Position numbers and translations under genes: made by a program
Shown: positions 3,479 through 49,438 of the stretch, one piece after another
Layout of the letters: every line of letters begins with the position of its first letter
Position numbering within the stretch: position 1 is the stretch's first letter
Assembly: GCF_963678975.1 (NCBI RefSeq)
Contig: NC_089279.1
Location: 36,289,933 to 36,353,932, forward strand
Source: Dysidea avara
Taxonomy: Eukaryota; Porifera; Demospongiae; Dictyoceratida; Dysideidae
Reading direction: 5' to 3'
DNA length: 64,000 nucleotides
The notes under the pieces: generated by a model
Databases searched by the model: none
The model's input: the letters and a program-made list of their open reading frames with translations, nothing else
Told to the model about the DNA's origin: nothing

Positions 3479-3680
3479 CCATACACAAGGAAATTTTGAT
3501 GCAAGAAAAATTTGACGAATTCACATTTCAGCAGATTTGATGAATAAAGTGTTGACGAAATTAAAAAATTGTAGACAAAACCTGTACTTTTAAAGACATT
3601 TGACGAACTTAAGTTTGATGAATTTAACTGATTCGTCGATTTTGTTAATTTTTTCTATTGTCAAAATTTCCTTCGTACGG
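3479..3680. mobile_element. Short MITE in LINE B, TSD TA
   Basis: A 202 bp hairpin-like element with TIRs related to CCGTACGCAAGGAAATTTTG, flanked by TA on both sides. It is rich in the subrepeat TTTGACGAA. It is the same family as 11902-12094 and has no coding capacity. The TA duplication suggests mobilisation by a Tc1/mariner-type transposase. Confidence 0.8.
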
Positions 3681-3878
3681 TATGCAAGGTGACTAATGTA
3701 CTGTGAATGCTAGCTAGCTATTGGCCTTCTTATTCCAAAGATACCTATCTGTACGTGTCTTAATACGATACAACAGACAGTCATCTGCAAATTAGGCGAC
3801 AAGTAGATTTAATACAGCTGGGAAAGTCATTTATAAAAACAAGAACAGTAAGGGTCCCAATACAGAGCACACTGGTAA

Positions 3879-4301
3879 GGCCAGGCCAATTTGATGGACA
3901 GTTTATCGTCCGGGATATTTGAAAAAGTCATGCGGGTGGGAGGTCATTTTTCATATTTCATAATTTTTTTAACATGGAAAAACATTTAAAAAGTAGCTTC
4001 ACACAGTTGCTAGCTACTTTAACAATGATTGCAGAGCTTATTTGATTACGTCACTGTTAATACTTAGCTATTCGTTTATACAATCTCTCTTTAGAAATCC
4101 ATTTATTGAATGTACTAATAAGTCCAGGCTGGGAATAATCGTCACGTGTGTTGCACACAACATGTTTTAATACACAAAAACGAGTTCAGAAGCGTAAGCA
4201 ATGATTATCACGTGAGAAATAATGAATTATGAAATTATTGCTCTATTCCTAAAAACCCATGCGGGCGGTGACGATAAACTGTGAATTAATTTGGCCTGGC
4301 C
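3879..4301. mobile_element. MITE in LINE B, TSD TAA
   Basis: A 423 bp element whose ends are GGCCAGGCCAA and its complement TTGGCCTGGCC. Both continue into a related ACAGTTTATCGTC stretch and a GCGGG box. It is flanked by TAA at 3876-3878 and 4302-4304. It separates the fingers from the palm of LINE B. The GGCCA-type ends with a TWA duplication match the elements at 1901 and 14199. Confidence 0.75.
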
Positions 4302-4620
4302 TAACGTTGACAGCTTCTGAAATAGAACCATCACAAAAAAACTTACTATTTACGGTTGTTAAAAAAGACCAAATACAGTTAATTGTCTCTCTGGTAATTC
4401 CATAGTACCTTAACTTTAACAGCAAGAGTTTATGGGAAACCTTGTCGAATGCCTTGCTGAAATCCAGTAGTATGCAATCAGTTTGTGCTTTGTCATTTAA
4501 ACTGGATGCTAAGTCATGGACAGTTAATAGTAGTTGAAGATCAGCAGAATGTTTTTGGTAGAAGCCAAACTGATTGGTTGAGAGGATATTGTTACATTCT
4601 AAATGCCCCATCACATGCAA

Positions 4621-6687
4621 TTAAATAATGTGCTTGAGAGCTGACTGTTTTATTAGAATATATTTTGTGACTGCTCTATTAGAGTATATCAAATCAGTAA
4701 AAATAAGAGTACTGTACATTTGATATCAAATGCAGCATTATGCATAGTGTGTTCATGTTTTGCTGTACGTATTTCTTACATTCACATTGCTTTAAAATCT
4801 TGTATTATATGCTGGCATAATACTTGATGCTTTTGCTAGCTTGTTAATATACAATCATGCCATCATAATTGGCACAAGCACATTAATTTTTAAAAGATAT
4901 TAGCGTTTATAAAATACAAGTGCACCTGTAGCTTATAGCAGTACCTTCCTATTGTAGTTACTACACAGTAAAAAGAAAGTGTTCGAGCACCCCTACATCT
5001 ATTCTTAGATGGCCTTCTGTAATAAAGCACATTTTATCTGTGCTTGGAAGCTACTGAGTTACACATGTGTACAGTACTTATGTATTTTGTACTGATATTA
5101 AACATTAACATGTTTAACCTTTTATTAATTAAAATAGTACGAAGTATGCAACCATTGAAATCACTACAGCAGATCTTTGGTGACAATCAATTTCACCATT
5201 GCCAAAGTTTCTCAAGTAGTGGAACAAAGAATTAAGCATATTACTAAATGGTGCAGTGTCAGTGTAAGATTCTACTCCACTGTATTTGCTTCGTATGTAG
5301 GTCTACCTAGTATGCAGTTGCTCATCAACTCGCTATGGATGATCCACAGTCAGAGCTCAGAAATGTACTGTTTTGGGTTTCTTTTGTGATTTGTTAGAAT
5401 GTCCGCATCAAGTTTGTGAGTGTATACCAGGAGACAACTAAAAAGGAAAGAACAAAAAAACATAATATAGTGAGGCTAGACTTTAGTGACATCACACAAT
5501 GCACATGTGTGTTTTTCAGTTTGCTGTACAGATGTAAAAAACTGCACTATAGCTGTTTGAAATTACAGCTGTTGATTTACACACAATATGTCTCATGTTT
5601 GAAAATTGTTGACTCTTAAAACTGGGAAAAAACTGTGATGATTTATTGCCATTGACTTTGAAAATTGTAGCAGCCTGCTGCTGAGTACTGACAGGGTAGC
5701 AAAAGGTAGAAGCAGTACTTTCAAGTATTAATTAAAAATTCTCATTCACTTTAAACTTTTCACACTGATACAGTAGATAGGTAGGTGTTCATTGACACAA
5801 ACTGGAATCATTTTGCACTTTGTAATTCAACTGTACAGCCTCTGACTCACACATTGCTCTACAGGACTAAGGGACCTGTGAAATAACTTTGAAATCTCCC
5901 TTATCTGGACCTCTTTTATCCAGGCCCAGACAGTCCAAATTAGTCACATGCATGTGGCCTGTAGTCTATTGACAATAAGATGTTTACGTGTTAGGTGGCT
6001 TGTTGATTCTAACTACCACTTGGTTGCTAGGTGATAAAAAAATTTACAACCCAGGGGAGTGACCACGAATGCTTTGTAGTTACTTCCCCTTCTACCCACT
6101 AAAATGTATAGTAGCAATAGTAACATATATTGCAGAACAGTTAGCTTTACTATATTAGCCAGTTACGGATATTTCTGAGATAAGGACAGTATACCAGACT
6201 ACCTGGATAAGAGAGGTTCCACTGTACCTGCTATAAAATAAATTACATGGATGACTCTATAGCAAATAAAATTCTTCAATTATCCCTGTTGCCTCTCTAT
6301 AATGTTGATGATTCTATCAGAGTAATTTAATATTGACTGCTCTACTAGAGTATCTTGATCTAAGTTACCAATATTAAAATTCCTTGAGGGTGAATTAAAA
6401 GCATGCAACCAATAATGCAAAACTGGCAATCAAGCTAAACAAGTTGCTCTACCTTTGAGTTGGGAGACCAGGCAGCAAATTTCTAGAACTACCCTTGTGT
6501 GTAGCTAGTTGACAAGTTTCAGAATTTCATCTTTGCAGGCAAGTCCATATTATATTGTTTGGTTGGGAAATTTGACTAAATAAAAAGTACTGGTCTGGCA
6601 AGAGCACTCAAATTGTGGCCTGCTGAGATTCATATGAATATTACAACAAGCTATTTTATTAGTTTAATTTTGTGTATTGATCTGTTA
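4621..6687. other. Intergenic; one possible pogo-like MITE
   Basis: No gene is supported; the small open frames at 5044-5619 overlap one another and lack motifs. Around 5897-6228 there is a weak inverted pair: a stretch with TTATCTGGACCTCTTTTATC at the left, and CTGGATAAGAGAGGTTCCAC at the right. This resembles the ends of Tigger/pogo-type MITEs. Two copies of the CTCTAATAGAG motif lie at about 4663 and 6332. Confidence 0.4.
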
Positions 6688-7107
6688 TGTACCTATCAAT
6701 GTAATCCCCGACTACCACTAATACGGGCTGAGGTGGGGGAAGGTAGGGATTTGCATCACTGAAAATTACAATTCCCCACCTACTGGGGACATACTGGCAA
6801 TGCAAACCATGACCAAGTCTCGACTTGTAGCCCCCGGAAATACTGGGGCTAGGAGGGGATTCGTACGGTTGTGTGGCGTTGGTCTAGTGATGAGTTAGTT
6901 CGAGTGGATTCTAGTACGAACGTAGTAGCTAGCACCCGAGACACTCCTTCCTAATTAACCTGAAAGCACACACCTTAGCTGTCTGAGTGAATTTCTTTAG
7001 TGAAGATAGATCCCCACTATGTCAGAGAAATTTAGCGATCAATTCCCCCACCATCCCCTACCCTCAGCCCGTATCAGTGGTAGTCGGGAATTACATTGAT
7101 AGGTGCA
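6688..7107. mobile_element. MITE with CACCTATCAATGTA ends, TSD TTA
   Basis: The TIRs are about 45 bp, with terminal sequences TGTACCTATCAATGTAATCC and the complement TGCACCTATCAATGTAATTC. They continue into CCCGACTACCACT and ACGGGCTGAGG. TTA flanks both ends (6685-6687 and 7108-7110). No ORF. The outermost 14 bp match the otherwise different elements at 13870-14168 and, in degenerate form, 10362-10605. This suggests cross-mobilisation by one transposase. Confidence 0.8.
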
Positions 7108-7820
7108 TTACAGTCCTGTAAAGCATTAATAAACAACTAAATAAAACACTATAGTCCAGTCATTTTATGGTTTAACCTTTAACTAATTGCAACACAAATG
7201 GTTTCAACAGTTTCTAGCACAGAAAAATGTGCTCTATAACATATCAAAAGTCCCGGAAAATCCCATAAGGGGAAGTGACCTTTTGCATGACCTTTTTTGC
7301 CATTTTTAGCAAAAAATTAGGATTTGTGCTTCTATTTCAGCTGTACATTATCCAAACTATTTATATTTGGTATCAAATGATTGCTCTCACTATAAGGAAC
7401 AAGATGACACTTGTTTGGTATCCATAGCTTAATCTGTTCTAAAGTTATCATCATTTTACTGGACAAAACTAATATTATTTAGTCCCGCCCACGCACTTAA
7501 TTAAATTTTGGTTTAAGCTATTTATTTGCTTGTCTAATGATAGTTTTCCCATGGCAAGGGACTATTTTCATAACAGAGGGTCATAATGAAGACTATAAGG
7601 TACATGTGTTACCATGGAAACCGAGAAATAGCATAGCTTTATATACAATTCGGTTGTTTTCATTCTCCATTGTCATGAAGATGGATTTAATTCTTTACAA
7701 CTCGAAACCTGACATTGTACAAGTTAAGTTAGGTACATACACAATGACACACGTTAACCATGGCCGTGGTAGGGGAAAATCTATTCCCTTGTGTATATAA
7801 ATGGTAAGTTTCGCTTTCAT

Positions 7821-8858
7821 TCAGCTAGTGTTGGTATCTGAATCATCTTCTTCATGGATTGAGGTGTCTGAGTTGGTGCAGCCTGTTCCCTTGCAGTTGC
7901 CACAAACAGAAGAGCATTTCACCTTGTATTTCTTGCAAGTGCATCTCATGCTGCTGCAGCCAGTGTGGCAGTTACATCTAATCATTTTCAACAGCTCATC
8001 TGGAGCAGGTGATAGATCAGTTAGCACAGGCATCAGTTTACCATCATAGTCTTTCTACCCCCATGCAGTTGGCTGCATTTCACTGGCATCACCTTTCCAC
8101 TCTTGTGTTTGGAATTATACACGGAAACTGTGATATTCAGCAGCAGCTGAAGTAGGTGGCAAAGTTTGTGGAAGAACAACTGTAGTGTTTTTAGCTACCT
8201 ATTCACAAAACGCTTGTATTGGAGAGAGTTTAATCCTTCCTTTGGACTTCCACTGTATAAATCCACTAGTGCTTGCTCTCCTGCAGCCACGGTGTCATTT
8301 GGTGTAGATGCTACTGCACTGAACACTTTGGCCTGCATTTGAAAGTATTTACTGGACTTTACCTTTCCCAATGTCATATAGCTGTGGTGTTGTGCCACAT
8401 CCAAGTATTGCATGTAGGAAGAGAATGTTGTATATAGCATATAAAAGCCAAGTTTCTCTTTGACAGCAGTTATGTTCCACACCCTGGGTTTCATAGTGGC
8501 TTTTTTGGCTCTGATTTGAAAAATATGTTGTGTGATTCCAAGCAGGCATGATAACACAGCAATACAAGAAGATCGGTGTCATCACCAACTAGCACAGTGT
8601 CTGCTACTCTGGCTAATTCTACTGCTTTTTTGTAATGTACAATCATCACATCAGCATCTCCTGAAGCATGGTATACTTTACAATTTCTTTCCAAGAAGCA
8701 GCTAAGCATATTAATGAACTGATACTTGTTGGTGCTGTTCAATAAAAAGTACCCTTCTTCATGTTCAGCTTCGTATCTTTGGTGAATGACACAGCTACTC
8801 CAGAGTACCCTTTGGCCCTCCTCAGATGTACCATATCTTTTGTTGATGACCTCTCACA
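7821..8858 (-). pseudogene. PIN-like nuclease/CXC protein, left palindrome arm, truncated and frameshifted
   Basis: Reading down the minus strand from the spacer: a VHLRRAKGYSGVAVSFTKDT segment; then NSTNKYQFINML and SGDADVMIVHYKKAVELAR; then VLVGDDTDLLVLL, an acidic cluster typical of XPG/FEN-type PIN domains; then LHAILGCGTTPQLYDIGKGK, AAGEQALVDLYSG and GLNSLQYKRF; and last a cysteine-rich tail with MIRCNCHTGCSSMRCTC spacing ending at 7821. At least three frame breaks occur and the amino-terminal half is absent. The same family is present at 41880-43833. I know this architecture as an abundant 'uncharacterized' family in invertebrate genomes. The nuclease role is inferred from the acidic motifs. 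Confidence 0.7.
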
Positions 8859-9810
8859 TGTCATTCACCAAAGATACGAAGCTGAACATGAAGAAGGGTA
8901 CTTTTTTGAACAGCACCAACAAGTAGCAGTTCATTAATATGCTTAGCTGCTTCTTGGAAAGAAATTGTAAAGTGTACCATACTTCAGGAGATGCTGATGT
9001 GATGATTGTTAAAAAGCTGTAGAATTAGCCAGAGTAGCAGACGCTGTGCTAGTTGGCGATGACACCGATCTTCTTGTATTGTTGTGCTATCATGCCTGCT
9101 TGGAATCACACAACATATTTTTCAAACCAGAGCCACTATGTAACCTAGGGTGTGGAACATAATTGCTGTCAAAGAGAAACTTGGCTTTGAAATATGCTAC
9201 AAAGTTCTCTTCCTGCATGCAATACTTGGATGTGACACAACACCACAGCTATATGACATTGGGAAAGGTAAAGTCCAGTAAATACTTTCAAATGCAGGCC
9301 AAAGTGTTCAGTGCAGTAGCATCTACACCAAATGACACCGTGGCTGCAGGAGAGCAAGTACTAGTGGATTTATACAGTGGAAGTCCAAAGGAAGGATTAA
9401 ACTCTCTCCAATACAAGCGTTTTGGTGAATAGGTAGCTAAAAACACTACAGTTGTTCTTCCACAAACTTTGCCACCTACTTCAGCTGCTGCTAAATATCA
9501 CAGTTTCCGTGTATAATTCCAAACACAAGAGTGGAAAGGTGATGCCAGTGAAATGCAGCCAACTGCATGGGGGTAGAAAGACTATGATGGTAAACTGATG
9601 CCTGTGCTAACTGATCTATCACCTGCTCCAGATGAGCTGTTGAAAATGATTAGATGTAACTGCCACACTGACTGCAGCAGCACGAGATGCACTTGCAAGA
9701 AATACAAGGTGAAATGCTCTTCTGTTTGTGGCAACTGCAAGGGAACAGGCTGCACCAACTCAGACACCTCAATCCATGAAGAAGATGATACAGATACTAA
9801 CACTAGCTGA
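8859..9810 (+). pseudogene. PIN-like nuclease/CXC protein, right palindrome arm, mirror copy
   Basis: This is the reverse-complement copy of the left-arm pseudogene. 8950-9160 holds the PIN-like core with GDDTDLLVLLCYHACLE, but a deletion has removed part of the VHYKKAVELAR segment. 9163-9432 holds AAGEQVLVDLYSGSPKEGLN. 9598-9810 holds the carboxy-terminal CXC tail, MIRCNCHTDCSSTRCTC through CGNCKGTGCTNS. The last ORF differs from the left-arm version at only a few residues, which points to recent duplication or gene conversion between arms. Frameshifts make it non-functional as a full protein. Confidence 0.7.
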
Positions 9811-10361
9811 ATAAAAGCGAAACTTACCATTTATATACACAAGGGAATAGATTTTCCCCTACCACGGCCATGGTTAACGTGTGTCATTATGTATGTATCT
9901 AACTTAACTTGTACAATGTCAGGTTTCGAGTTGTAAAGAATTAAATCCATCTTCATGACAATGGAGAATGAAAACAACTAAATTGTATATAAAGCTATGC
10001 TATTTCTCGGTTTCCATGGTAACACATGCACCTTCTAGTCTTCATTATGACCCTCTGTTATGAAAATAGTCCCTTGCCATGGGAAAACTATCATTAGACA
10101 AACAATAAATAGCTTAAACCAAAATTTAATTAAGTGCGTGGGCGGGACTAAATAATATTAGTTTTGTCCAGTAAAATGATGATAACTTTAGAACAGATTA
10201 AGCTATGGACACCAAACAAGTGTCATCTTGTTCCTTATAGTGAGAACAATCATTTGATACCAAATATAAATAGTTTGGATAATGTATAGCTGAAATAGAA
10301 GCACAAATCCTAATTTTTTTGCTAAAAATGGCAAAAAAGGTGATGCAAAAGGTCACTTTCC

Positions 10362-10605
10362 CCACTATGGGGCATTTGACGATCGTTCAGTAAGCACCCA
10401 AATATTGTTTGTTGTAACTTCCTTCGCTATGTCAAATCCCGAGTAAATCCCGCATTGCAACTGGGGCCAACGGTGGGGATTTGACACGATAGGTTTGCCC
10501 TACTATGGGGCATTTGACATTCGGCTGTGTCAAATCCCCACTATAGCCCCATATATGCCCGAGGGGGGGGGGGGGGGGGGGGTAGTGGGGCAATACATTG
10601 ATGCT
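10362..10605. mobile_element. Truncated MITE at palindrome edge (same family as 13870)
   Basis: From CCCACTATGGGGCATTTGAC onward this matches the interior and right half of the 13870-14168 element, including GGGGCCAACGGTGGGGATTTG and a terminal GGGGCAATACATTGAT. The left end is replaced by the palindrome right arm. A run of about 20 G lies near 10563. The palindrome breakpoint therefore falls inside this MITE. Confidence 0.75.
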
Positions 10606-14426: not shown

Positions 14427-16777
14427 TTAGTCTGGCGTGTCGACCAGCGCGCGTAGCGCGAGGGTCTGGTGACAGCCGCATTTAGTATCTGTGCAGATAG
14501 AATGCAAAAATACGTGCGAAACACGTGGACAATTTCCGGTAACAGAGCGCGACAGTTACTGTACTTGCACTTGAATGACATATATTAACCCTTACATTTG
14601 TGCTGGTTATGGAAAAGACATAAGAAGCTCGCCATAATCAGTGGGCAAATTGGGAATAACGTCATAGAATGTTGTTAATTGGTCACTAATCGATCTGATT
14701 GGACGCACCAGTTTTTATTTTATTTTAGAAGCACAAATTATAATAGCGACGCCCTAACAATATATTAAATACAAAATTCTAACTAGCTTAACTACCAAAC
14801 TAAGTACTTTAACTACAAAACTAGCTACCTTAACTACAAAACAACCTTAATTAATAACTTAGTTCAACAAGTCTATGCCATCTTCTGGGCATAAGCCATA
14901 ATGCCTCAGGATCATTTTGGCATTATATCGCCAGAGAGTAACTGACAAGCGCTGCAGCAATTGTTTCCTTGCAAACTGTCTGGGAATACCACTTTTAACA
15001 GTGGTACGGTCGGCAATCGAGGATAAGGTTGATAAAGCAAAGGGTATCCAAACACCAAACGACTCGCAAACCAGGGGAAAAAATTCACCACCATGGTTAT
15101 TAACAGTTTCCAAATAATGGTCATCCTTAGCCTCCTCACCGGCAGCAGCAGCTACCCCAGCCTTAGATGCAGCAGCGGAAATAAAGGAAGGCTGAGTTGT
15201 GCACCTGACAGAGAGGTCAAAGTAAGCAGGACGGCCTAGAGTAAAATCAGGATGGTAAATGTCCCCAGGACGAGATTGATCAGAGGCAATGCTTTGCTCA
15301 CGGAGAACACCAGGGTGATCTTGCAGTAGAGCATGATGTACTATAGAACAAGAGCATCATGGCGTTGGATACGTAGTGGGCCATGAGAGCAACCAAGAAG
15401 ATGGTCACCAAACTGATCTATGACAGACAAACATGTACAAAGTGGTAACAATGGGAAAAGAGGAACACCCAACCATAAACGGACAGCGATAACAAACTCA
15501 TGTGGAGAAAAGGCCAAACCCAATGTTGGTTGAGGGATGGCCTTCAGCCAGCCACTGCTGACACCAGAGGAGTGAGCAACAGCACGTAAACGAGCCTGGT
15601 CACGGATTGTGGAGGTGTTGAAAATGCTTGCAAATAATTGATCATCAAGGGAAGCCTGTAAGTCATTTTGGGAAGATAAGTTAGAAGGCAAGATGGATAG
15701 ACTTTGGAAATAGGAGATAGCACAATTTTCACCTGGAAAAAAGGAAGTCACATCAAAATTTGGTGCTAAACGGGACACCAAAATCCGGGCTGAGTTACAG
15801 GAACCCAAAAAGGCTGGGTGTGAAGAGCGTTGGGACTCACGCAAACCCAAGCCTCCTAAACGGAATGGCAAAGTAGCTTGAGACCAAGCATTATCAGAGA
15901 TGCTACAGCACAAAATTCTACTAAGACAGTTGCGTAGGTTAGAGTCAAACACAGATGGAAAGCAGCCTAATGATGAAGAAGGGACACAGCGCAATATGTG
16001 AGTGATCTTACAAACACTGAGACAGCTCCTAAGCAAATTCAATTCAATTTGAGGATCTCCAAGTTCTGCAAGCTTATCCTGAATAGATGCAGTTTTTTCA
16101 AGTTTACTAGACAAAAAAGAATCAAAAAAAAGTAGGTGGTCCCCACACAGGAGACCCTAAAAGCTCCAAACCACTGCTTTCGGGATTAATTTGTTTTATT
16201 GCATGAGGAAATTCAGGGAAAGAGCTATCTCCAGAAGGCCAATACAACTCACATTTGGATAGATTGATATGCAAGCCAAAACTTGGCCCAGACTGAGTAA
16301 AGCATGATAGTAAAGCAAGGAGAGAAGACCTAGACCCAATAAAAGTGCCATCATCTAAATACCACAAACTTAGGAGACAATTTTCACTAAGAGGATTTCG
16401 GAGGATTGGAACCAAGAAACTGAAGCAAAACTGATGAGAATAACAGAGGACCAAGTGGATCACCCTGCTGTACACCAGTGGAAGCAAGAATACGACGGTG
16501 GCCAAAACGTAATTCTGCAGGCTGGTTATAACACCAGTACACCCAACAAGATATTTCAGGAAAATCCTTATAAACACGGCTGAGAAAAGCAGTGCGGCTG
16601 CATTCATTAAAAGCATTTTTCATATCTATCTTCAGAAGAGCTAGTGATTCATCACCACCCAGCTGAGATAGAGCATGACGGACAGCATGAATAGCCCATA
16701 AGGCTTGGCACAGGTACTGAATGCGGCTGTCACCAGACCCTCGCGCTACGCGCGCGTTGGTCGGCTACGCCAGACTA
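14427..16777. mobile_element. Middle MITE of the nest, 8 bp TSD GCTGACAC
   Basis: The left end is TTAGTCTGGCGTGTCGACC and the right end GGTCGGCTACGCCAGACTA. GCTGACAC flanks it at 14419-14426 and 16778-16785. The interior at 14460-14716 matches 13290-13560 of the sister element almost base for base. At the equivalent of position 13565 the LINE 14717-16702 has been inserted. This copy keeps the full left terminus lost in the sister copy. Confidence 0.85.
14717..16702 (-). mobile_element. LINE D with R2-type endonuclease residues, 5'-truncated
   Basis: The minus-strand protein reads in order: LLKIDMKNAFNECSR; STGVQQGDPLGPLLF; the catalytic WYLDDGTFIG; a thumb with LRCVPSSSLGCFPSVFD; and ATLPFRLGGLGLRESQRSSH. 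The carboxy-terminal domain has CTCLSVIDQFGDHLLGC, then RIQRHDAL, SRPGDIYHPDF and AYFDLSV, then LVCESFGVWIPFALSTL and QLLQRLSVTLWRYNAKMILR. A C-x-C..H-x4-C cluster followed by RHD and PD..D is the pattern of the restriction-like endonuclease of R2/NeSL-type LINEs. There are two or three frameshifts (near 16120-16620 and 15345). An A-rich tail lies at 14717-14733. Confidence 0.8.
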
Positions 16778-19493: not shown

Positions 19494-20679
19494 ATGTCTG
19501 ATAACATGTACTTACTACTGATAGTAATGATATTATTGTGTCCTTGCAAAGCTCTGGGATTTGATGATTGCATTGAAAGAGGTGATAATTGTGGAGCAGC
19601 AGAACCTGTCAACTGTACCAAAGACTATGGTGAGCTGGAGTCATACATCTTGAACCATGATGAGATTATGGACAGTCTGAAAGAAGCTTTTTTCAGAACT
19701 GGTAGAGATCCCTCACGGTTTGTTAGGATCAGATATGTCTTCCTGTTGACTGGAAATAACACCAATGATTGTTCTATGGCAAACAAGACTGAAGAAGTGT
19801 ACATATGGAGTGATTCACCAATTTACCTACTTGGTCCAAAACCACTACTATTTCTTACATTGTTTGCCATCAACATAGCTGAAATAGGTGTCCGAGTACC
19901 TCTACCATGTCTGTGTTATGGTCAGGATGACAGGCTCCTCTCCAGGCTAACTTATCTGGTAAGTGCCAGTACATGCAATTGTATCTTATAGCTAGCTACG
20001 TAGTTACTGATGATGCATATCGGCTGGCCAGAGATATACTGAGCTTGCTAGCTCAGCCGTGCATGAGGCATATAGACTAACTAAATCATACATGCTGGCA
20101 TAGCTGATAGCGAAGATATTGGTGCATGACTACTCGGCCTTGGGGGCGGTGCCATTTATTACACAGGCTATTCTCCACAGTGAATTTTCAAAACGTTTAT
20201 AGACCACTAAAACAAGCACACTAATACATACAGGCAGGCCCGGGACCCTGATCGCGCACGGCCACGGCACGTATATAACTAATACTGTGGGATTCTACTG
20301 CATGATCTCCTGAACGGCCAGCATGCAGGCGTAATACAAGCTATGCAGCGAGGCCTTCGAGGTCTACTTGATTCTTGACTCAATTTAATGCTGCAGCGGT
20401 GACACCGCGGGGTTGGCTTTGATGATGCTATAGTAGCTAGCTAGCTAGCGGCTACTTCCGAGTTATACATGCACGAACTTCATGAACAATTGGAGTGTTA
20501 TTGATATGCAGTTTGCGGTCACAGTCGTAACAATTAGTGCTGGTCACTGTAAAGCATTAATACAATGCAATACAATACAATTTATTAAACCACTGTCTCG
20601 CATCCCATACAGTAGCTACACCTACATGGTATATAATACATAGTCCAGACTGTGTTTCTACGTCGCAAATAAGGGAAAT

Positions 20680-20718
<39 letters not shown>

Positions 20719-22036
20719 CAACAAAAACAACAACAAAGAAAGATAAATCAACAGTAAAGTTGCAGTCCAGATTGCTTGTGCAATTACAAAAACATCTAAT
20801 TTAAAACAACTAAATTGTGAAAAAAGTCAACAATGGCTAGTTTGAAATTGAACGGGTAATGTGGTCAAGAAATGGTTGCAGTAATATTGATATCGATGCA
20901 TGTCAGTTGACTTGTAGCAGTGGAATATGGAGGAATGGAGGCTTGCATATGCATAATACAATACATTTCATTATGAATGTCTTCACTGTTGTAATATTAT
21001 ATGCAACTGTTCCCCATTACAGATCAAAGTGTATCCAGCAAATCAGTTTACTGATGGAGATTCTTTACAGTTTATCAACAAATACTTCTTTCACGCAAAG
21101 GGACTGGATAATGATAACTATAAATCCATTGTAAATATTATGAGAATAACAATACCATTTACACTAACACTAGCAACTGTATTCATTGCTCTATCCAACA
21201 AATATGTCTATCCTAAACTTTATTCCTATACTAAGCGACTTCATAACATGCAACACTCAGATGAAGAATTCTTTAAAAGCAAGGCACACCTTCCAGCACA
21301 CTTATTTACCAGTCTTTTCTTAAACTTTGGACTTCTTTCATTCCATGTTGTATCAGTTGTGAATAATATAAGATACGGCAATGAAGTTCTGGATAACGAA
21401 AACTATGATGTTGAATCTACTACCTACGAGGATCACCAGGCCATAACAATATTCCATGCTGCATGGTCATTTATCCCTATTGCAGGATTGTTTGTCACAG
21501 GAATAACATATGTTGTATTTAAGTGTTATTACAAGAATGACAATCTAATGGTCCTTACAGCATCAGTATCAATGACAGGAACTATTGTTTATTTGGGATC
21601 ATATTTCATGCCTTACATGTTGCTGGCTTTTATCTATGATCCGCTGCAAACTGCTTTTATCTATTTAACCCTGATAGCCTTTGGTCTATGCATCTACTTT
21701 TACAGTTTTGGATTCTTTCAACTCAAGATGGCCACTATGTATGCAGGTTCGCGTAAGTGGCGTGATGCTGGAGAGAACATGAAGAACCTAGCAATGGCAT
21801 GGGGGTCATCAGCCACAATCACTTATTTCTTAGGTGTCATTATATACATACTCGACTTGGGTAACTTTCACGACTTCATGTCAGCACAGAATCTACTGCT
21901 ACCTCTGATGGTCGGCTTGTTTACTTACCTTGTCCTGAAGCCAGCTAACAAAGCTGTGGAACAGATGAATATCAACAATGGAGCAATAAATGCTACAATT
22001 GACACTCAAGTGTTAATGGAGTCACAATTATATTAA
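19494..22036 (+). CDS. Gene A: secreted-N-terminus multi-pass membrane protein, unknown family
   Basis: Two exons, 19494-19958 and 21023-22036, joined in phase 0 across a 1064 bp GT-AG intron; 492 residues. The protein starts with a signal peptide (YLLLIVMILLCPCKALG). Residues 22-155 form an extracellular domain with about six cysteines, N-glycosylation sites (NCT, NNT, NKT) and the conserved blocks AFFRTGRDP and INIAEIGV. About seven hydrophobic segments follow, beginning MRITIPFTLTLATVFIAL and ending AQNLLLPLMVGLFTYLVLKP. The short tail ends ESQLY. The topology resembles a seven-pass receptor, but I recognise no receptor signature and assign no function. Gene B downstream is a paralogue with the same intron position. 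Confidence 0.85.
20681..20735 (+). repeat. CAG/CAA microsatellite in intron of gene A
   Basis: About ten CAG units run into CAA/ACA units. It lies in the intron, so it is not translated. An (AATAC)-type run at 20561-20580 sits next to it and may be the tail of an old retroelement. Confidence 0.8.
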
Positions 22037-23215: not shown

Positions 23216-26200
23216 ATGACTGATATTGTGTACTTATTGACAGTAGCAATTTTACTGTGTTCTTGCACAGCTCAAGAGGAAGATAATTGTAATAGAACTA
23301 CCATCCAGCAGTTTTGTAATGCTCAAGGAACAGATAATTGTAATGGAGCCATCATCCGAGGCTTCAGTGAGCTGCAGTCATACATTATGACCGATGAAAC
23401 AATCATCACAAACTTGACAGAAGCATTTTTTAGAACTGGCAGGGATCCTTCACAATTTGTTAGGATTAAGTACACCTATGCAAGTAATGAGACTGGTTGT
23501 TCTCATTTGAGAAACATGACAGCAAGTGAAACATACATTTGGAGTGAATCACCAATTTACTTACTCGGTCCAAAGCCATTACAGTTTCTCACATTGTTTG
23601 CTATCAATATAGCTGAAATAGGTGTTGAAGTACCTCTACCATGTCTGTGTCAGCGTCAAGTTGATGCATTACTCTCTAGACTCACCTATCTGGTAAGCGT
23701 ATGCTGCATGTGATTGAGTTACTAGATAGGCCCATTAATAGAGGAGCACTAGCTGATATGATATAATGTCGCTTGATCAAGTATATAGGTGAAAACCGTG
23801 AAGTTGCAGCTGACCGCCGCGAAGCCTACCGCCAGCTAGTGCATGAACCGCTGAGCTAGCTACTGTAGCTACCGGTACGAGTCCCGCAGTTTTGGTTAAA
23901 ACAAAAAAAAAACTGAGTATAAGTTATGCAACAAAAAACGGGCAGGTTGTAAATTCTTCTTGCAAGAATATCTTGTTATAGCTACCGTTTTCCATACCTT
24001 GGCAAGTATGATCCTGTAAATCCTACTGATAGCATCAGCTAGATATACAAAACGCCTACCTGACTTTAGGGCGGTGCCCACTGTGGAACGTATTTCCGTT
24101 TTACGCACCGTTATATTGTTAGCCCCTCAGGCAACAATACATAAATAAACAATAGTATATATACAAGTGGTTTTCCTCGACTGACTCATGCGACCACTGA
24201 CGACAAAATTGGCGTGACAAGGAACAGTGACGTAACTAGGCTAGCCAAGCTAGGTGTGATCTACCGAAACAATCTGGTGCCCAGATTATTTATTATTTTA
24301 GTATTTAGCTATTTAAGTCTGCCGAATAGTATCTTTTAGTCTTCCTGTCCGGCATACAGGTAGTGGTACTCCAAATTATTAAGCTTTACAGCATGGGTAC
24401 AAATAGTGCAATTATAACCGCAGAAAAGAAATATCAGTCCACGCTGAGAGTCCACTAGCTTAAGTTTCTTCTATATTGTCTGCTCTCAAGTCAGGCTTAG
24501 ACTAACTGTTGAATCTTCTCTCCCCCACAAGGCTCTTGACCATGAGAATTCTATGTCCCCCGAGGACTGCAGGCATCTTCAACATGGTTGGGAATACCTG
24601 CTTTATGAACACCATTTTTTAATCTCTTTTGGACTCTGCCTCTGATGCTAAAACAAAGGCTTGCCTATTGTCAGTTTCCTCAGAGTCTGGTGGGTAGTTT
24701 GGTGCTCTCCCTGTACCTCTCTTGGCACTAAGCTGGATAATGAGTCTTTGAGGATTGCTACGTCTTGGTAGTCCTATCATTGTCGAACAAATGTGTGTTT
24801 GTGGTAGTAAAGTTGATGTTTTGGTACTCACAGTTTGTCAGTGGAGGCCATATTTCACAGCACGCTGATTCATTGTGATTGTGCTCTGGCATCTGGAGGT
24901 GTAGCTGTTGTTTTGGAGCCTGTCAGTGTGTGTCATGACGATGGTAAGAGGCCAGATGGCACATTATTGATTCCTTGGTGGCAGGTCTTACCCTTGTTCT
25001 GGAACTTTACCTGTTCAGACACCCTTGCCCCATCTAATATTCTTCCGTAAGTGGTGCCAGCCTCTGCGAAGTATTCTTCTTTAACTCCATCTTTTTACTT
25101 CTCCCCTCTGTGTGTTGAGACCCTAGGTGCTTGAGGATCATGCCCATTTGGGAGATAGTGGGGCCACCTAATATTTGATTCAGAAGGTTGCTATTGATGT
25201 TCAATGTGGTGCAACAATTTCATCATCACAGGATTGGGCAGAGTTTGCTTCTCTGCCCATAGTTTGAGCAAGACAAAGACTTTCTTTTTAAATTGAACTT
25301 CTGTATTTGTAATAAAAGATTATTTATTTATGAAAAAATCTGGTACCCCACCAGAAGTGTTTATCTCTATATATGCATGACTGAGATGCCCTATAATAAT
25401 AGGACAGTATACTCTAATAGAACAGTCACATGTGGTACTTAAAACAGATAAAAGCAGTGTACCAATCTATTATTATTATTATTATTATTATTAATGCTCT
25501 ATAAGTGTGTATTTACAAAGAAGACTCATTTTAATTTATAGCAAATTAATGTACAGTTGGTATGCAGTGGCCATCTTCATTCACAGCACTGTTCATTATC
25601 ATCAATCAACCTGTTTCAACCAGAAACTCCTCGATGATACTTTGATTTCAGCATTGGGAAAGATATTCCAAGCTAGACACTGTCCACTACAATTTACTTG
25701 TGTGTTTATTTGTAGCTTTCCTTCCGTTGTTCTGGAATCTGGATCATTGTACCATTGTATCAGAGTGCTATCAACTGTGCAACCACTGCTAGCACCCTTA
25801 GTTTTAATAATTGTTGTAACCTATAGCTATTAAAAGATGGCATGACCCCAAACTCTGGATCATTATATCTATTTCTTCCACACAATATAATTACGTTCTA
25901 CATTCTTGAGGCCATGCAAATATCTTCACCTATGAATGTGCAATTTTCACCCTGTATGTGACAATCTGTAGTTCTACAAATGGCGAACCATGTATCCTTC
26001 GATACAATTGAGGAACTGTGAGCCTATGAGATACCTTGTAAAAGTACAAATTTGTATGGCCAGAAACCATTAACATGCAGTTTAGAAAACTCTAGACATC
26101 ACCAATCCTTAAGTAAATTCCTCGCACTTTAAATAATTGGTGAATGACTACGTACTAAGTCACGTGAGACCACAGACAAAGTGTATTAATTTTTATTATG

Positions 26201-28226
26201 GTAACACAGTTGAAGAATTTGCCAATAAGAATTCTTGCCAATCAGACCATGTATATAATGTGGTATTCTTGTAACCACCAGGCCTAGACCTACTAGTGTG
26301 CTGTACCTGATCTCTCAGTAGAAAAGTACCAGAGAGCATGGAGTAATTTTTCTGATCTGCAGAAACGTTTACTTAAATAATTAAAAGATTCTCAGTATAC
26401 TTCAGTACTTTTCTTGTGTAATTTTTTATAAACTGTAACTTTTGTGTTTTGCACTGTGTATTGTATAAGCTGTGTATATATACGTTGTGTGGTATAGAGA
26501 GCACCTTTGCAGGCTTAGCATCCTTATTGTGTATCTGTATAAACTGACCTCTAATTAGAGCAAAGTCAAGTGCTGTAGAATCTCTAATCAAGTAAGTAGC
26601 TAAGGTTCCAGAGTCTAATACCACCAGGTATACATATTGGTAATCTTTCTATACAAACTAGTGGTGACTGCTTGTAGGCAGGAGCCACACACAGTCATAC
26701 AGGTCGTGTAGTTGACATAGCAATGAGATATTTAACAGCAAAGAAGGCTATAGAGCAAACAGAGAATCAGAAAAATGATACTAAGACTACGTATGTTGAA
26801 TTTAGAAAGAACTGTGCTGACTTGATGTCTTGACCCACAAATGACTTTCAGTTTAGGCAATATTGCATGTAGCATCACATGAGCAGGTTCAGGCCAAGAT
26901 AATTATGACAAGCATGCTGGTAACACTATCATTATAAGTAAATCAGTTCATGCATGGCAGATATGCTTTGGACATGTACAGATCCATAGCAGTACTTGAC
27001 TTATACATGTCCACAGAGGTTATAGCACTGATTTGAAACAAATTTTCTTAATGTTAATAAGACACAGGGTTTTAGAAAACATCCTCTGACTTATACAGCT
27101 ATTGTGATCAGTCAATATTATTGATGAATACAGAATCAACTGTATTGTATAGCACATTTACACTGCAGTAGTTACAACTTGATGTCTTCACTATTTTCCA
27201 TTACAGATCAAAGTATATCCAGCAAACCGGTTTACTGGTGGAAATTCTTTACAGTATATCAACAAGTACTTTTTTCATGCAAAAGGAAATGATAATGACA
27301 ACTATAAAGCCATTGTAAACATCATGAGAATTACAATACCATTTACACTAACACTTGCATTGATGTTCATTGCTCTATCCAACAAATACATTTATCCCAA
27401 GATGCATGCTTATGTTAAACAACTTCAAAATATGAAACACTCAGATGAAGAATTCTTCAACAACAAGGCACACCTTCCAGCACACTTATTCACCAGTGTT
27501 TTGCTGAACTTGGGACTCTTTTCATTTCATGTTGTATCAGTTGTGAATAATATAAAATATGGCGATGAAGTACTGGAAGATAGGGAATACACCCTAGGTG
27601 GTGCCACCTATGATGATCACCACTCCATACCTATATACATTGCTGTTTGGTCACTGATACCAGTCATTAGTATATTTTGCATGGCAATAATTTATGTTCT
27701 ATTTAAAAGTATTTGCTACAAGAATGTCAATCTAATGGTCCTTACAACATCAGTATTAATGACAGGAACTATCATATATTTGGGGTCGTACTTTATGCCT
27801 TTCATGTTGCTGGCATTCATCTATGATCCGCTACAAACTGCTTTTATCTATTGTACCCTGGTAGCCTTTGCTATATGCATCTATTTCTATTGTTTTGGAT
27901 TCTTTCAGCTCAAGGTAGCCACTATGTCTGTGAGTACGTGCAAATGGCGTGATGCTGGAGAGAACATGAAGAACGTAGCAATGGCATGGGGGTCATCAGC
28001 CACAATCACCTATTTCTTAGGTGTCATCATATACATACTTGACTTGGGCAACTTTCATGATTTCATGTCAGCACAGAACCTACTGCTACCTCTGATGGTT
28101 GGCTTGTTTACTTTCTTAGTTCTGAAGCCAGCTAACAGAGCTGTGGAAACGATGCGTCAAGAAGACAATGAAGCAATGAATACTACTGCTGACACTCAAG
28201 AGTTAAAGGAGTCACAATTGTATTAA
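23216..28226 (+). CDS. Gene B: paralogue of gene A, multi-pass membrane protein
   Basis: Exons 23216-23692 and 27207-28226 join in phase 0; 498 residues. The signal peptide is followed by an extracellular domain with a small internal duplication (DNCNRTTIQQFCNAQGTDNC) and conserved AFFRTGRDPSQFVRI and SPIYLLGPKPLQFLTLFAIN. The membrane region is close to gene A, for example WRDAGENMKN, AMAWGSSATITYFLGVIIYI and DFMSAQNLLLPLMVG. The tail again ends ESQLY. The intron is 3514 bp against 1064 bp in gene A, enlarged partly by a retroelement at 24500-25090. Both copies are open throughout and the membrane region is the most conserved part. Function unknown. Confidence 0.85.
24500..25330 (+). mobile_element. 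Retroelement carboxy-terminal fragment in intron of gene B
   Basis: In shifting frames the plus strand reads LDHENSMSPEDCRHLQHGWE, then CVCGSKVDV, then ALASGGVAVVLEPV, then DDGKRPDGTLLIPWWQVLPL and NFTCSDTLAPSNILP. A C-x-C..., RPDG and D-F-T pattern followed by SDTLA is what I associate with the endonuclease-like carboxy terminus of an invertebrate LINE, comparable with LINE D. Several stops break it. A TTATTTATTTATG run near 25320 may be its 3' tail. Confidence 0.55.
25091..27206. other. Remainder of gene B intron
   Basis: Contains a CTCTAATAGAAC motif at 25410 and a (TTA)n microsatellite at 25470-25495. The small ORFs at 25507 (+) and 26373 (-) carry no recognised motifs. A pyrimidine-rich TTTTCCATTACAG acceptor ends the intron. 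Confidence 0.5.
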
Positions 28227-41517: not shown

Positions 41518-44194
41518 TAGTCAGGGAAATTTTAATATAATCTAGGAATAAATTCCTTACCAAGAAATTTTTTTACCAATGTGTTTGTAAAGGTGTCTAC
41601 TAACCCTCCTCAAAAGATTTAAACACAACTCCCCTAGAGGAACCCGTGACAGCTGCTGGAAGTTGGACTACCCATGAGCCTTATTTGGAAATATTTAAAA
41701 TTGTCTGATTGCTGTAAGCATAGTGTGAAATGTCAAACTACATAATTCAAACTATATTGCACCCTTTCAGGGGTAGATTTATGGGGGAGGCTAAAGGCCC
41801 CCCCATAAATTTTAAGGGCCGGTTGTATTGTCAGCTAATGAAGCAACTTGAATCTTTGCCTGATTACAAGAAGATTTTTGAAAATTTCACTGCCTATTGT
41901 TCGTTACTCTTGCCATGATTGGTCTGGCACCTGGTGTGACATCTGTATTGAGCAGAGGCTAATGAAGGAAGCCAAGTCAGAAGGTGAGTTGAGCAGAGGT
42001 AGGATGAGGAATAGTGATTCTGGACACAAGTGCTGGGTGCAAACACTAAACCATTTCGTAGATGTCAACCAGCGCATGGAGGTGGTGTCAAAAAGCATTG
42101 TCCACTCCACAAAGATCTTGCCAAAACATGAATGAAAAGAGATGCTGCACGTGCTCTCACATGGCTTGAAGAGAATAATCCTTTTAACCATGATCGAGAC
42201 AACCAGTTGCTTGTGTCATTCTCAACAGGATTTACTAGCACTGCAAATGATGGAGTCAATGCAGAGAGAGCAGCTGAAGTAGGGAGGGAGATGCAGAAGA
42301 AGATGGATGCACAGCCAGTAACCTCAACCATGGAAGTGATTTCAAGGTACAGGCCTTATCATTACTCAGAAAGATTCCTAAGCTCAATGAGAGGAAGATT
42401 CACCTTAACTCGCTTAGGTTGTTCAACCGACTGATAATTATTGCTTAACGAGATATGTCAATTGAGGCAAGCTTAGAGTATGAACTGACTCCCCTGCCTT
42501 TGTCCTTGTTCAGTAATAAAGATCATAAAATGACTGAACACGGCAAACAAAGCAATTTTTTCCAACACTAGCCTGAAAGTGTTTACTGACCCACTCGACC
42601 TCACTGACCAACCTTGCTCCAGTCTGGTAGTGGATGGTGGATGGCTTCTTTACATGGTGAAGTGGGAACAAGGCTATACTTTGCAGGAGATTGCTGACAG
42701 TTACCTGAGCTACGTACAGTATTTTGGCAGGTACTCTCAGAAGATCACCATGGTGTTTGATGGCTACAGCAGCTCACCTAAAAATCATGATCACATTAGG
42801 CGTACAAAGAACCCTGCTGTGATGTACAGATTCGACCGAATATGATGCATTTGACACCAAGGGCAAGGGCAAAGTTTCTAAACAACATTCATAACAAGAG
42901 TGAAATCATCCATCTCCTCTCTTCAGCATTCCAGAAACATCAGATCACTGTAGAGCTAATGATGCTGACACTTCAATTGTGAAGGTTGCATTGGCTGCTG
43001 CTAAGGATGACTCTGTTGAGGTCAGTGAACCCCGTGGATGGTTGCTATGTTGTTATTCTATTTCTTATTATTTTCAGGTGCAGGCAGAAGATGCTGATGT
43101 GTTAATAATACTAATACACCATAGTTCATACACCAATCATCCACTCTTCTTTACCACGTCAAAGGGTTCTTATGATGTCAGGAGAATTCAAGAATCTCTG
43201 TCTGAAAGACAGAGGCGCTACCTGCTATTTTGTCATGCCTTTACTGGTTGTGATACTGTTTCTGCCATTGCCAGCCATGGGAAAACCGCTCTATTTGACA
43301 GGTTTTGTGCTGGGGACATTGATGAACACATGGACACCTTCCCTGATGTACAGGCTAGTAAGGATGTGATGATCAGGAGTGGCATTTCAATTTTCCAGCA
43401 CATTTACCATGCACCCGGTACTGCCTTAGCTACATTTCGATACAGCATGTTCTCATGAAAGGCAGCAGCTGGGCTAATTAAACCAGAAACTCTACCTCCA
43501 ACAGAGGGTGAAGCTGCACAGCATTCTCTCTTTGCCTATCTACAAACCCAGGACTGGATGCTATTGCAGAGCATGTCTTTGGACCCCAGTGGCTAAGGAT
43601 GGACATTATGGAGTAATGGCTATGAGCCAGTTCCAACATTAGACCCTATGGCACCTGAGGAACCTTTAAAGTTCATAAGCTGTAATTGTAAAGGAGATTG
43701 TAGCAACCGACGGTGCAGCTGTAAGAAGAATGATGTCAAGTGCATCTCAGCATGTGGAAATTGCAAAGGAATTACATGCGAGAATTGCATTGATGATGGA
43801 GAGTCTGGAGAAGACCCAGACATTGACTTATGAGACAATAGACATTATTAAACTAGTCCTTAAGAAATACACAAGTTATAAAAATAATTTACCAACTAAT
43901 AATAATAATAATGAGTGAATGTGGTCTTTTCATAAATTTCAGGAGTGGTTTAAAGTTTGCAATGTATACATATTAAACCACATGATTTGCTGTACTAGCA
44001 GCAAATCAACCATTTTCAAATAAGGTCATGGATAGTCCAACTTCCAGAAGCTGTCACGGGTTATCCTAGGGGAGTTGTGTTTAAATCTTTTGAGGAGGGT
44101 TAGTAGACACCTTTACAAACACATTAGTAAAAAAATTTCTTGGTAAGGAATTTATTCCTAGATATGCCAAATATCTGCTAATATTCCCTGACTA
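41518..44194. mobile_element. 2.7 kb TIR element carrying a PIN-like/CXC gene
   Basis: The terminal inverted repeats are about 180 bp: left 41518-41695, right 44015-44194. The tips are TAGTCAGGGAA and TTCCCTGACTA. Inside, both arms share GGAATAAATTCCTTACCAAG, GGTGTCTACTAACCCTCCTC, TTTAAACACAACTCCCCTAG and TGGAAGTTGGACTA. The TIRs enclose one gene-like unit on the plus strand and little else. No DDE transposase or RT is visible. The target duplication is unclear (CTAG or CTA at both sides is possible). The gene may be the element's own mobilising protein or a passenger. Confidence 0.7.
41880..43833 (+). pseudogene. PIN-like nuclease with GTW-IEQ module and CXC tail, near full length, frameshifted
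   Basis: Segments in order on the plus strand: GTWCDICIEQRLMKEAKSEG and LSRGRM (41930-42005); WLEENNPFNHDRDNQLLVS with STGF (42160-42240); RDMSIEASLEYELTPLPLSL (about 42450-42510, another frame); LVVDGGWLLYMVKW and ITMVFDGYSS (42620-42775), the first acidic motifs of a PIN/FEN-like fold; QAEDADVLIILIHHS (43082-43126); LFCHAFTGCDTVSAIASHGK (43228-43287); and CNCKGDCSNRRCSCKKNDVK with CGNCKGITCENC (43681-43790). Motif order matches a family annotated only as uncharacterized in many invertebrates. At least four frame breaks make it inactive here. A metal-dependent nuclease role is inferred from conserved Asp residues. Confidence 0.7.
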
Positions 44195-44602
44195 CTAGTT
44201 CTATAGTGGAGTAAAACCATCACCTATTGTCCATTCATGAATAGTGCATGTGTATAGCCGTATAACACTGTGAAAAAGGTGGGGTATAATATGGTATTTC
44301 CAGTGGCTTATTGAATACAAATAAGCCTTAATATAAATCCTGTATTATACTCATCTTATGCTTTAGTATAATCCATACTATACTATTGTATATATGGCCT
44401 TTCAGTTTATTTACCACATTACCTGAAATAGCTTATATCTAACACTATACCATCACATATGTGGTTTCAGTATGTTTAACACATTAACTAAAGCCTTACA
44501 TGTGATTGTTAGTATACTACAGGTTATATCAAGCTTTTTTGTATTCAATAAGCCACTGGAAATACCATCTTATATCCCTCATTTTTCACAGTGTTGTTGT
44601 AC
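44195..44602. other. Spacer with a large weak inverted repeat
   Basis: GGTATTTCCAGTGGCTTATT at about 44293 is mirrored by AATAAGCCACTGGAAATACC at about 44548, with related CACTGTGAAAAA ends at about 44268 and 44592. The element of about 330 bp has TIRs of 45 bp or more and no ORF. It is a further MITE. Confidence 0.7.
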
Positions 44603-46795: not shown

Positions 46796-49438
46796 ATGGA
46801 TCAAAGAGATCATGAAGGACTAAACCAGTTTAAAACACCTGAGAAGGGTCAGTATACTAATTCCTGGATATTATAGTGTATACAGAATCCACATACTACA
46901 GCTACCAGTACCCCACTACTAAAGGATCTTCATATCCACATTACTCCAAATTATGCTGCTCATTGGAGAATGATAGGAGCACTACTGGGTTTACCCAGTG
47001 GAACACTTGACATCATAAAATATGACAATTATGATGAAGCCAGGCCTTGTTGTGATGCTGTGCTGGAAGTGTGGCTTGAAGTGGACTCCTCTGCTAGTTG
47101 GGAGAAAGTGTTTAAAGTTATTGAGTCACCTGCAGTGTCTAGTGATCAAGGTATAGTGTATGTGTGTTAGTTGTATGATTTTATGATGTTGATTTCTGTA
47201 GGAATCTCCGTGTTGTCCGACAGGGTGAGACAACTTAATATACAAACACGGTTTGCTGTTGATGAAGATTCTTGGCCACCAAATCAACCTAGGGACTTTA
47301 CACCACTTCTTTTAGTTCATCATCAAGATCAACACACTTTTGAGCAGGCAACTGCACTGCAATTAGCTGGATCCATCCAATCAGGTAGACCTCATTATCC
47401 ACCAGGAATCCATCAGTCAATGAGAGAAACACTTGATAACAGTAAGACAACTAAACAACTAGTTGATATCTCAGCTCCACTACAAGAGAGTGACAATGCA
47501 CATCTTATTTTAGTTGAGGGTTTGCCTGGTATCGGCAAATCTTTGTTATTACAAGAAATTGCATACAAGTGGTCAATAGGAAAGTTGTTACAAAAGTTTG
47601 AATTAGTTTTCCTTATCCAGTTGCGTAGTCCAGCTGTGCAGCAGGTGTCACTTGTCGCTGATCTTTTCCACTTGGTCTGTACACAACAGACAGATGCCAC
47701 AGAAATTGCCACTGCATGTAGCAAATACCTCTTCAATAACCATGGCAAAGATGTTGTTTTTCTGTTTGATGGCTATGATGAATTCCCAGAACACCTACAG
47801 AAAGATAGTTTAGTTGCTGATATACTGAAACGTAAGGTGTTACCTCATTGTGGCTTGATAGTGTCATCTCGTCCACATGCCTCGGTGAGACTCCGACAAC
47901 AAGCGACCATCAGAGTTAACATCTTGGGCTTTGCTGAAGAAGAACGAAAGTTATACATTCAACAGTCCCTGAATGAACAGCCACATGCAGTCAAAGAACT
48001 CATTGAGTATCTTGAGGGTAATCTGACTATCAATGGCCTCTGTTTCATCCCCTTTAATATGGTGATCTTGATTTATTTGTACAAACAGGGAATTCCCCTT
48101 CCCAGCAATCCTACACAGCTCTACAATTACTTCATCTGTCTTACCATCTGTCGACATCTTGCCAAGTCTGGTCAACCTCTTGATAACACCATCACTGATC
48201 TAGCCAAACTCCCCGAGCCCTATAATACAATAGTTCAGCAGTTATCAAAATTGTCCTTTGAGGGTCTTAATAACAACAAGCTAGTCTTTACCTTGGAGGA
48301 GATGAGAGCAGCTTGTCCTAGTGTTGAAGCTATTGAAGGTGCACTCAACGGGTTTGGACTGTTGCAGGTTGTTCAACACTTCAGAAAAATGATGACATTT
48401 AATTTTGTTCATTTTTCCATTCAGGAGTTCTTGGCTGCTTACCATATCACTCAACTTCTACCAAACGAAGGGCTGCAAGTGTTCAAAGACAAGTTCTGGG
48501 ACGATCTTCATTCCAACATGTTTGCAATGTATACGTCACTTACCAAGGGACAGCAATCTGCTTTTAAACAATTTCTCTCTGGTGGGGATGACATGATTAC
48601 CATTGCTGAAATATTCTTGAAGAATCAACTAAAATGTCTTCGACTTTTCCGCTGCTTCTATGAGGCGAATGACGAAGCTTTTTACACTTCTATACAACAA
48701 GGAAAAACTTTCGATGATAAAGTAATCAATCTTGAGAAGACTAGCCTAACCATTTATGATGTTGAGTGTGTTACACTCTTCCTTACCTGCTCACCCCACA
48801 AGGAGTGGAAGAAGCTTAACTTGCATAACTGCCATATCCAAGGTCATGGCTGTTGTGTTCTTCATCGCGAACTGACACGATGTGACATCACTATAAAAGA
48901 GCTCAACTTGCGGTTTAATGGCCTCACAAAATCTTTCTCCTCCTCCATCAGTCACCTCACCAACCACTGTAGAGTGGAAGTGCTGGAAATTAATGGTAAC
49001 AACACCATTGGAGAAGACCCTGCTCTCTACAACATGTTGTCCCATCCTTCCTCTAGGCTAGTGAGGCTATACATGGTGGACACCAGCTTATCAACATATT
49101 CAGTCATTATCCTCTTCACTGCACTAGCAAAAGGAAACAAACTGCAGCAGCTCTATATTGACAAAAATCCCTTTACTAATGAAGCTTGTGATGTCATTGC
49201 TACTACAATGAAGACCAACACATCTTTAATCTGGCTAGGGATGAGTGTCAGCAAGATCAGTGGAGAGACTGCTCAACATCTAGCACAAGCCCTCCAACAC
49301 AACAACACACTACAAGGGCTACGGCTACCCAGTTATGCTGAAGATGTAAAGAAGATAATTAGACTACTAGTAGAAGAAGTTAACGAGAAAAGAGAAAGTA
49401 GAGGATGTCAAACAAAACTTAACATTTATTATTGGTAG
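46796..49438 (+). CDS. NLR protein: DEATH-NACHT-LRR
   Basis: Cytosolic pattern-recognition receptor of the NLR type. Exons 46796-46847, 46902-47150 and 47202-49438, with introns of 54 and 51 bp, join in frame to 845 residues. An upstream in-frame stop supports the ATG. Residues 20-95 form a Death-fold domain (WRMIGALLGLPSGTLDII, CCDAVLEVWL). The NACHT domain has a P-loop GLPGIGKS (about 207-214), a Walker B VVFLFDGYDE (about 285-294) with the extended acidic motif, and IVSSRPHA as sensor 1. VHFSIQEFLAAYHI marks the end of the NACHT-associated helices. Leucine-rich repeats follow from about residue 630 (LNLHNCHIQGHG, LNLRFNGLTKS, LYIDKNPFTNEACDVIA). Amphimedon carries a large clade of such genes. 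No lesion is visible. Confidence 0.92.

Follow-up and report, generated by a model that had tools for sequence, protein, structure and literature searches.

A decayed inverted-repeat transposon in the sponge Dysidea avara, probably of the Academ superfamily, and its relatives with a fused XPG/FEN-type nuclease

In the window, i.e. the whole stretch of 64,000 nucleotides of Dysidea avara DNA that was analysed, a gene for a PIN/FEN-like nuclease with a cysteine-rich tail lies between long inverted repeats, which raises the question of what kind of mobile element this is, if it is mobile at all, and whether the nuclease itself could be moving it. An earlier note on this DNA had proposed a possible new class of element, moving by a nuclease unrelated to DDE enzymes, with a conventional transposase acting in trans as the alternative. 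It now seems very probable that the window element derives from an Academ transposon of the AcademX type, a DNA transposon with terminal inverted repeats (TIRs), of which it would be a decayed, non-autonomous copy with an internal deletion.

The element ends and the gene between them

The tips of the element are located exactly at 41518 (TAGTCAGGGAA) and 44194 (TTCCCTGACTA), where the earlier note had also put them, which gives the element a length of 2.68 kb. The left TIR (41518..41692, + strand) was delimited by reading of the sequence, comparison of the arms and genome-wide pairs, and the right TIR (44012..44194, − strand; its end is given here as read on the + strand) by comparison of the arms and by the flanks, which are TTC and CTA, so that this copy has no 3-bp target duplication. 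Over 138 nt without gaps (41540-41677 against 44026-44163) the arms are 96% complementary, and when aligned with gaps they extend over 153 bp at 95%. A separate 332-bp stretch with 63-nt inverted arms (44264-44595; 92%), which resembles a small hairpin element, begins 69 bp past the right end.

What the repeats enclose is a broken gene, truncated to the 3' part of a longer one. With the 1041-aa relative P0001 as the reference for its coordinates, the region 41817..43827 (+ strand) corresponds to residues 382-1040 (tblastn, open reading frames and stop count), matching in three frames and with one stop in 357 aligned codons. There is indeed a gene between the TIRs, as had been claimed. In the relatives, the nuclease forms the 3' half of a protein of ~1000-1600 aa, and the N-terminal half, with its D/D region, is missing from the window copy.

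The nuclease core (42619..43458, + strand; reading, open reading frames, tblastn and profile) is of the XPG/FEN/EXO1 type, with the motifs VVDGG, VFDGY, NDAD, AEDAD and GCDT, and contains a 57-bp GT-AG intron (43021..43077, + strand) that was found by reading and is shared, at the same length, by copy L034. A family profile of 46 rows matched human EXO1 with an E-value of 9.7e-7, and the alignment has the acidic 5' nuclease motifs in order and a GCD turn, in agreement with the ordered metal-site motifs and GxGK-like turn of the FEN/XPG/EXO1 superfamily; a second profile, of 56 rows, matched the same protein at 7.1e-5. The PIN/FEN-like assignment was therefore borne out by the HMM-type check that had been proposed for it. 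Among the rows having the column, 55 or 56 conserve the nuclease acids, with one row carrying E for D. The cysteine-rich tail (43648..43833, + strand; from the open reading frame) is likely a CXC (Tesmin/TSO1-like) domain, as it had been read before, with Pfam TCR detected in 2 of 26 family members (best E 0.0032) and some relatives named Tesmin/TSO1-like CXC in UniRef. In a profile search of the PDB, the tail gave an EHMT match that is not significant (E 6.3).

The part that is missing from the window copy is best seen in other proteins. P0001 gave 67 protein matches, and residues 430-1510 of the fused protein of locus L042 gave 345, with a cover of at least 80% in all but 5 of the 120 that were listed. 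In an alignment of 56 rows, hand-chosen among the relatives, D445, D448, D617, H643 and E892 (numbering of P0116, the L042 protein) are invariant in every row, and because of these residues the N-terminal half is interpreted as a putative RNase H-like DDE transposase core. Searches of the PDB with the 46-row and 56-row profiles returned no chain matching this half, and Pfam gave nothing for it beyond a weak DUF6589 (PF20231), which scored 24.7 bits against P0138 (below the cut-off of 27; E 1.2e-5), a protein listed with PF20231 in a precomputed table, and which appeared weakly in 4 of 26 family members (best E 0.007). None of the 8 proteins for which bits are shown had any Pfam match at cut-off, and the best E over the 26 members was 0.0032; a search of viral contigs with P0001 gave no match. 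The proposal of a new class that moves by a nuclease unrelated to DDE enzymes finds no support in this architecture, in which the nuclease is fused C-terminally to an invariant D/D/E half in all 56 rows.

Copies in the genome and the probable loss of autonomy

When the left TIR was searched against the assembly (550.8 Mb in 108 contigs), 40 of 93 candidates were scored as matches; 34 of these face each other in 17 convergent pairs and the other 6 are single ends, an arrangement that is not expected of a chance repeat. The 17 paired elements of the window family span 2154-5950 bp. L027 shares its flanks with L025, and L033 (which has also lost its right tip) with L031, so that each of these pairs represents one insertion that was later duplicated, leaving 15 independent insertions. 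Exact identity of the 3-bp flanks was found in 11 of these 15 two-tip insertions (ATA, TAT, TAA, GTA, TAT, TAT, TCA, AAA, TAA, TTG and TTC), the exceptions being the window copy, L024, L028 and L029. By chance, such a match would occur at 1.9% per site (from the trinucleotides of the window), which gives a binomial P of ~1.5e-16; this value is uncorrected, because the duplication length of 3 and the tip were read off the same flanks. Duplication lengths of 2, 5 and 8 bp did not fit the flanks of the copies when compared by eye.

These results, which were obtained by the genome search that the earlier note had suggested, confirm that the TIRs are real, that the element is mobile and that the gene belongs to it. 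Nor does the TIR occur across the genome only without the gene, since at least part of the nuclease region is retained in 13 of the 17 paired copies. For L026, a query of 200 bp of joined flanks (40 of 1106 candidates scored in the genome) revealed no empty site, because its right flank is common to another repeat and the matches cross the junction by at most ~13 bases; the joined flanks of 11 copies, compared with the sequences retrieved in the analysis, gave no junction-spanning match in 41 rows. Where two copies share flanks (L025/L027, L031/L033 and, by one flank match, L036/L040), they are on the same contig at a distance of ~80-220 kb, which suggests that the D. avara assembly contains segmental duplications.

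In four of the 17 paired copies (L021, L024, L025 and L027) the nuclease core is not alignable, although the TIRs are present. Two of these, L021 and L025, are independent and have target duplications, which shows that an element can do without the nuclease in cis. With tblastn (E 1e-4), none of the 17 paired copies matched residues 1-381 of P0001. All of them lack the D/D region, and since the window family nevertheless has TIRs and duplications, it is probably a non-autonomous, decaying derivative that is moved in trans. With nuclease-less copies that carry duplications, the conventional transposase in trans, which had been offered as the alternative, turns out to be the better half of the original statement.

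More than 200 codons could be aligned in 12 of the 17 copies; 7 of these have stops in the nuclease stretch, and their summed pN/pS of 0.74 leaves room for some constraint, either before or after the deletion. Elsewhere in the genome, the broken locus L043 joins residues 5-179 of P0001 (47% and 69% amino acid identity) to an 80-bp CXC-coding segment with 90-98% DNA identity to the window family, and this join of both halves suggests that the progenitor of the family may have had both; no TIR was seen at this locus. As a candidate helper in trans, an intact N-terminal half of the close family was searched for in the genome and none was found (96 of 96 candidates scored).

Intact relatives, classification and proposed mechanism

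A genome search with P0001 gave at least 70 matches (44 of 808 candidates scored), and several of those listed lie in open frames of 1475-1556 codons. Four loci were analysed, three of which (L041, L042 and L044) have intact open reading frames between TIRs with 3-bp duplications, in elements of 5.3-6.3 kb. L041 encodes 1550 aa in an element of 5395 bp (duplication TGG) and L042 1522 aa in 5308 bp (TAC), while L044 has an open frame of 1479 codons, 1471 from the first ATG, in 6339 bp (CAT). The fourth, L045 (5788 bp; TAA), is a near copy of L044 that has a stop; the two are 99% identical in one stretch of 4.57 kb and 97% in another of 1.03 kb, with ~550 bp missing from L045 at the coding 5' end. 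The duplications of L041 and L042 are weaker than those of L044 and L045, because their tips had to be assigned from the flanks by reading, beyond the arms that were computed. The tips of the relatives start with TAGT, once with TAGC, and between families they differ past the first 3-5 bases (TAG or TAGT). Under the 11-base terminal rule of Repbase, the termini alone would not place L044 together with the window family.

The second nuclease locus in the window belongs to the L044/L045 family. Here two 3' halves of an element of this other family of the same kind are arranged as a palindrome (7152-10371), with arms that are 92-100% alike: the left arm (7152..8856, − strand) runs inward from the true tip TAGTCCAG and has 88% DNA identity to L044 as well as nuclease/CXC peptides, and the right arm (8859..10371, + strand; 87% DNA identity to L044) is an inverted second copy of the same half that stops 110 bp short of the tip. 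The inverted-repeat build that the earlier note saw at 7270-10361 was read correctly, but the locus starts at 7152, represents another family than the one at 41518-44194 and is not one gene between TIRs. Immediately to its left, 6682-7113 has 67-nt inverted arms (84%). Other features of the window are reverse-transcriptase-like open reading frame pieces, recognised by eye, at 35-960, 2959-4620 and 15341-16616 (four pieces had no Pfam match at 1e-3), two tandem gene pairs that look similar by eye at 19494-22036 and 23216-28226 (two larger open reading frames, no Pfam match at 1e-3), and an NLR-type gene at 47171-49438, whose 755-aa open frame has a NACHT domain (E 2.5e-25) and an NLRC4 HD2 below cut-off.

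The filing under Academ rests on the nuclease, the length of the target-site duplication (TSD), the length of the element and the DDE-like residues, rather than on alignment to a Repbase entry. The nuclease of AcademX is specifically XPG-like, and an XPG-type nuclease is what the profile matches to EXO1 and the conserved acids indicate here. The 3-bp duplications are shared by 11 of the 15 independent window-family copies and by L041, L042, L044 and L045, the window copy itself being without one. In the published descriptions, as far as these are available, Academ is counted among the DDD/E superfamilies (PMC9587614), AcademX has TSDs of 3-4 bp and a nuclease (Kojima 2023, PMC10045372), and curated bivalve Academ elements have a mean length of 5565 bp (PMC10294476), which compares well with the TIR-bounded 5.3-6.3 kb of L041, L042 and L044; the likeness is drawn from these descriptions and not from Repbase sequences, and the window copy differs in being truncated and non-autonomous. 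AcademH, although placed in the same superfamily by the published classification, has TSDs of 9-10 bp and a helicase, where 3 bp and a nuclease are found here. A DDD/E transposase together with a nuclease also occurs in KolobokE, KolobokD and KolobokP (described in the available part of PMC9587614), but the nucleases there belong to the lambda-exonuclease-like, DEDDh and His-Me finger types, and none is XPG-like. With the 5' nucleases FEN1, XPG and EXO1 themselves the family shares all acidic motifs in order, but here these are joined, within a transposon, to a half that resembles a transposase and to a CXC-like tail. In the accessible portions of the open-licence literature, no description of this particular transposon family was found.

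A full-length element (~5.3-6.3 kb) would accordingly be expected to encode one protein of ~1500 aa, with a Cys/His N-terminus, a DDE core, an XPG/FEN/EXO1-type nuclease and a CXC-like tail. The DDE core would cut at the TAG tips and insert with a 3-bp stagger (the duplication being observed and the chemistry predicted), the nuclease may trim or resolve flap or branched intermediates, and the Cys regions may bind TIR or target DNA. The window family would have lost the D/D region while keeping the TIRs and the nuclease half, and its at least 15 independent insertions would have been made by a transposase supplied in trans.

Whether the same plan of DDE core, XPG-type nuclease and CXC tail could instead represent an undescribed superfamily outside Academ depends on how its likenesses are weighed. 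The lack of Pfam matches at cut-off in the 8 proteins (and a best E of 0.0032 over 26 members) would fit such a superfamily, as would an Academ membership that does not come from alignment to a Repbase entry, but it is unlikely, given that the AcademX nuclease, the 3-4 bp TSDs and the Academ length of ~5.5 kb are all matched as far as described in PMC10045372 and the available part of PMC10294476, and that so abundant an animal family would presumably not be absent from Repbase. That the PIN/FEN nuclease is itself the transposase, of a new class unrelated to DDE, is very improbable. It is true that the 17 paired copies have no D/D region while the nuclease region survives, in part at least, in 13 of them, and that the nuclease acids hardly vary across the family; on the other hand, the N-terminal D/D/E half is present in all 56 aligned relatives, the four TIR copies without a nuclease core include two with duplications (L021 and L025), and the nuclease stretch has the stops and the pN/pS given above. 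In addition, FEN/XPG enzymes are flap nucleases that are not known to have strand-transfer activity.

A gene with a spliceosomal intron between TIRs, at a locus with no complete transposase, could also be read as a nuclease gene of the host that was picked up by a non-autonomous transposon unrelated to it. This is hardly credible, and already contradicted, since a like gene fused to the N-terminal half sits between TIRs in separate families and the fused L042 protein has 345 matches, with the cover given above.

Distribution across phyla and meaning

The closest relatives of the window family identified in this analysis come from fish, hagfish, a coral and a crab. Taking the best stretch for each protein, P0007, which represents the window family, shares 79% of its residues with a protein of Aldrovandia (362 aa) and 75% with one of hagfish (364 aa), and among further fishes 79% with Dissostichus eleginoides (310 aa), 68% with D. 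mawsoni (365), 68% with Larimichthys (319) and 69% with Nerophis (236), with similar values for Seison (81%, 244 aa), Chionoecetes (77%, 211), Paramuricea (78%, 185) and Priapulus (77%, 74). Proteins of Sycon, Ephemera and Patella are 23-31% identical to it, and those of two other families in its own genome 32% (L042) and 30% (L044). In a tree of 33 rows (2 of 35 were left out for low cover), the window family groups with the fish, hagfish, octocoral and Seison rows, apart from L041 and L042; the fork that joins it to those animals has a support of 88/99, is not starred and is drawn open. The four Dysidea rows require three changes, and they form a single group in 0 of 200 bootstrap trees.

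A protein identity of 68-81% across phyla, versus 30-32% to two other families of the same genome, is a strong lead towards horizontal transfer. It is quite possible, although the balance tips slightly against it, that the family crossed between animal phyla fairly recently (sponge, octocoral, Seison, crab, priapulid, hagfish and several bony fishes) and that a single polypeptide would supply it with two nucleases for transposition, the DDE core acting on the ends and the flap nuclease completing insertion or excision, so that the 3-bp duplication would reflect nuclease processing. A record named as a bacterial metagenome-assembled genome (Sedimenticola sp.) contains a relative (P0139) with 51% identity to the L042 protein, which is probably animal DNA in the bin.

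What was supposed to be a new class of mobile element becomes, very probably, a placed member of a little-studied known type. New are the sponge relatives with intact open reading frames, the sister locus with its palindrome and the pattern across phyla. The three sponge relatives in which intact frames, TIRs and duplications come together are testable, and their fused flap nuclease offers a direct route to the question of why some DDE transposons carry repair-type nucleases.
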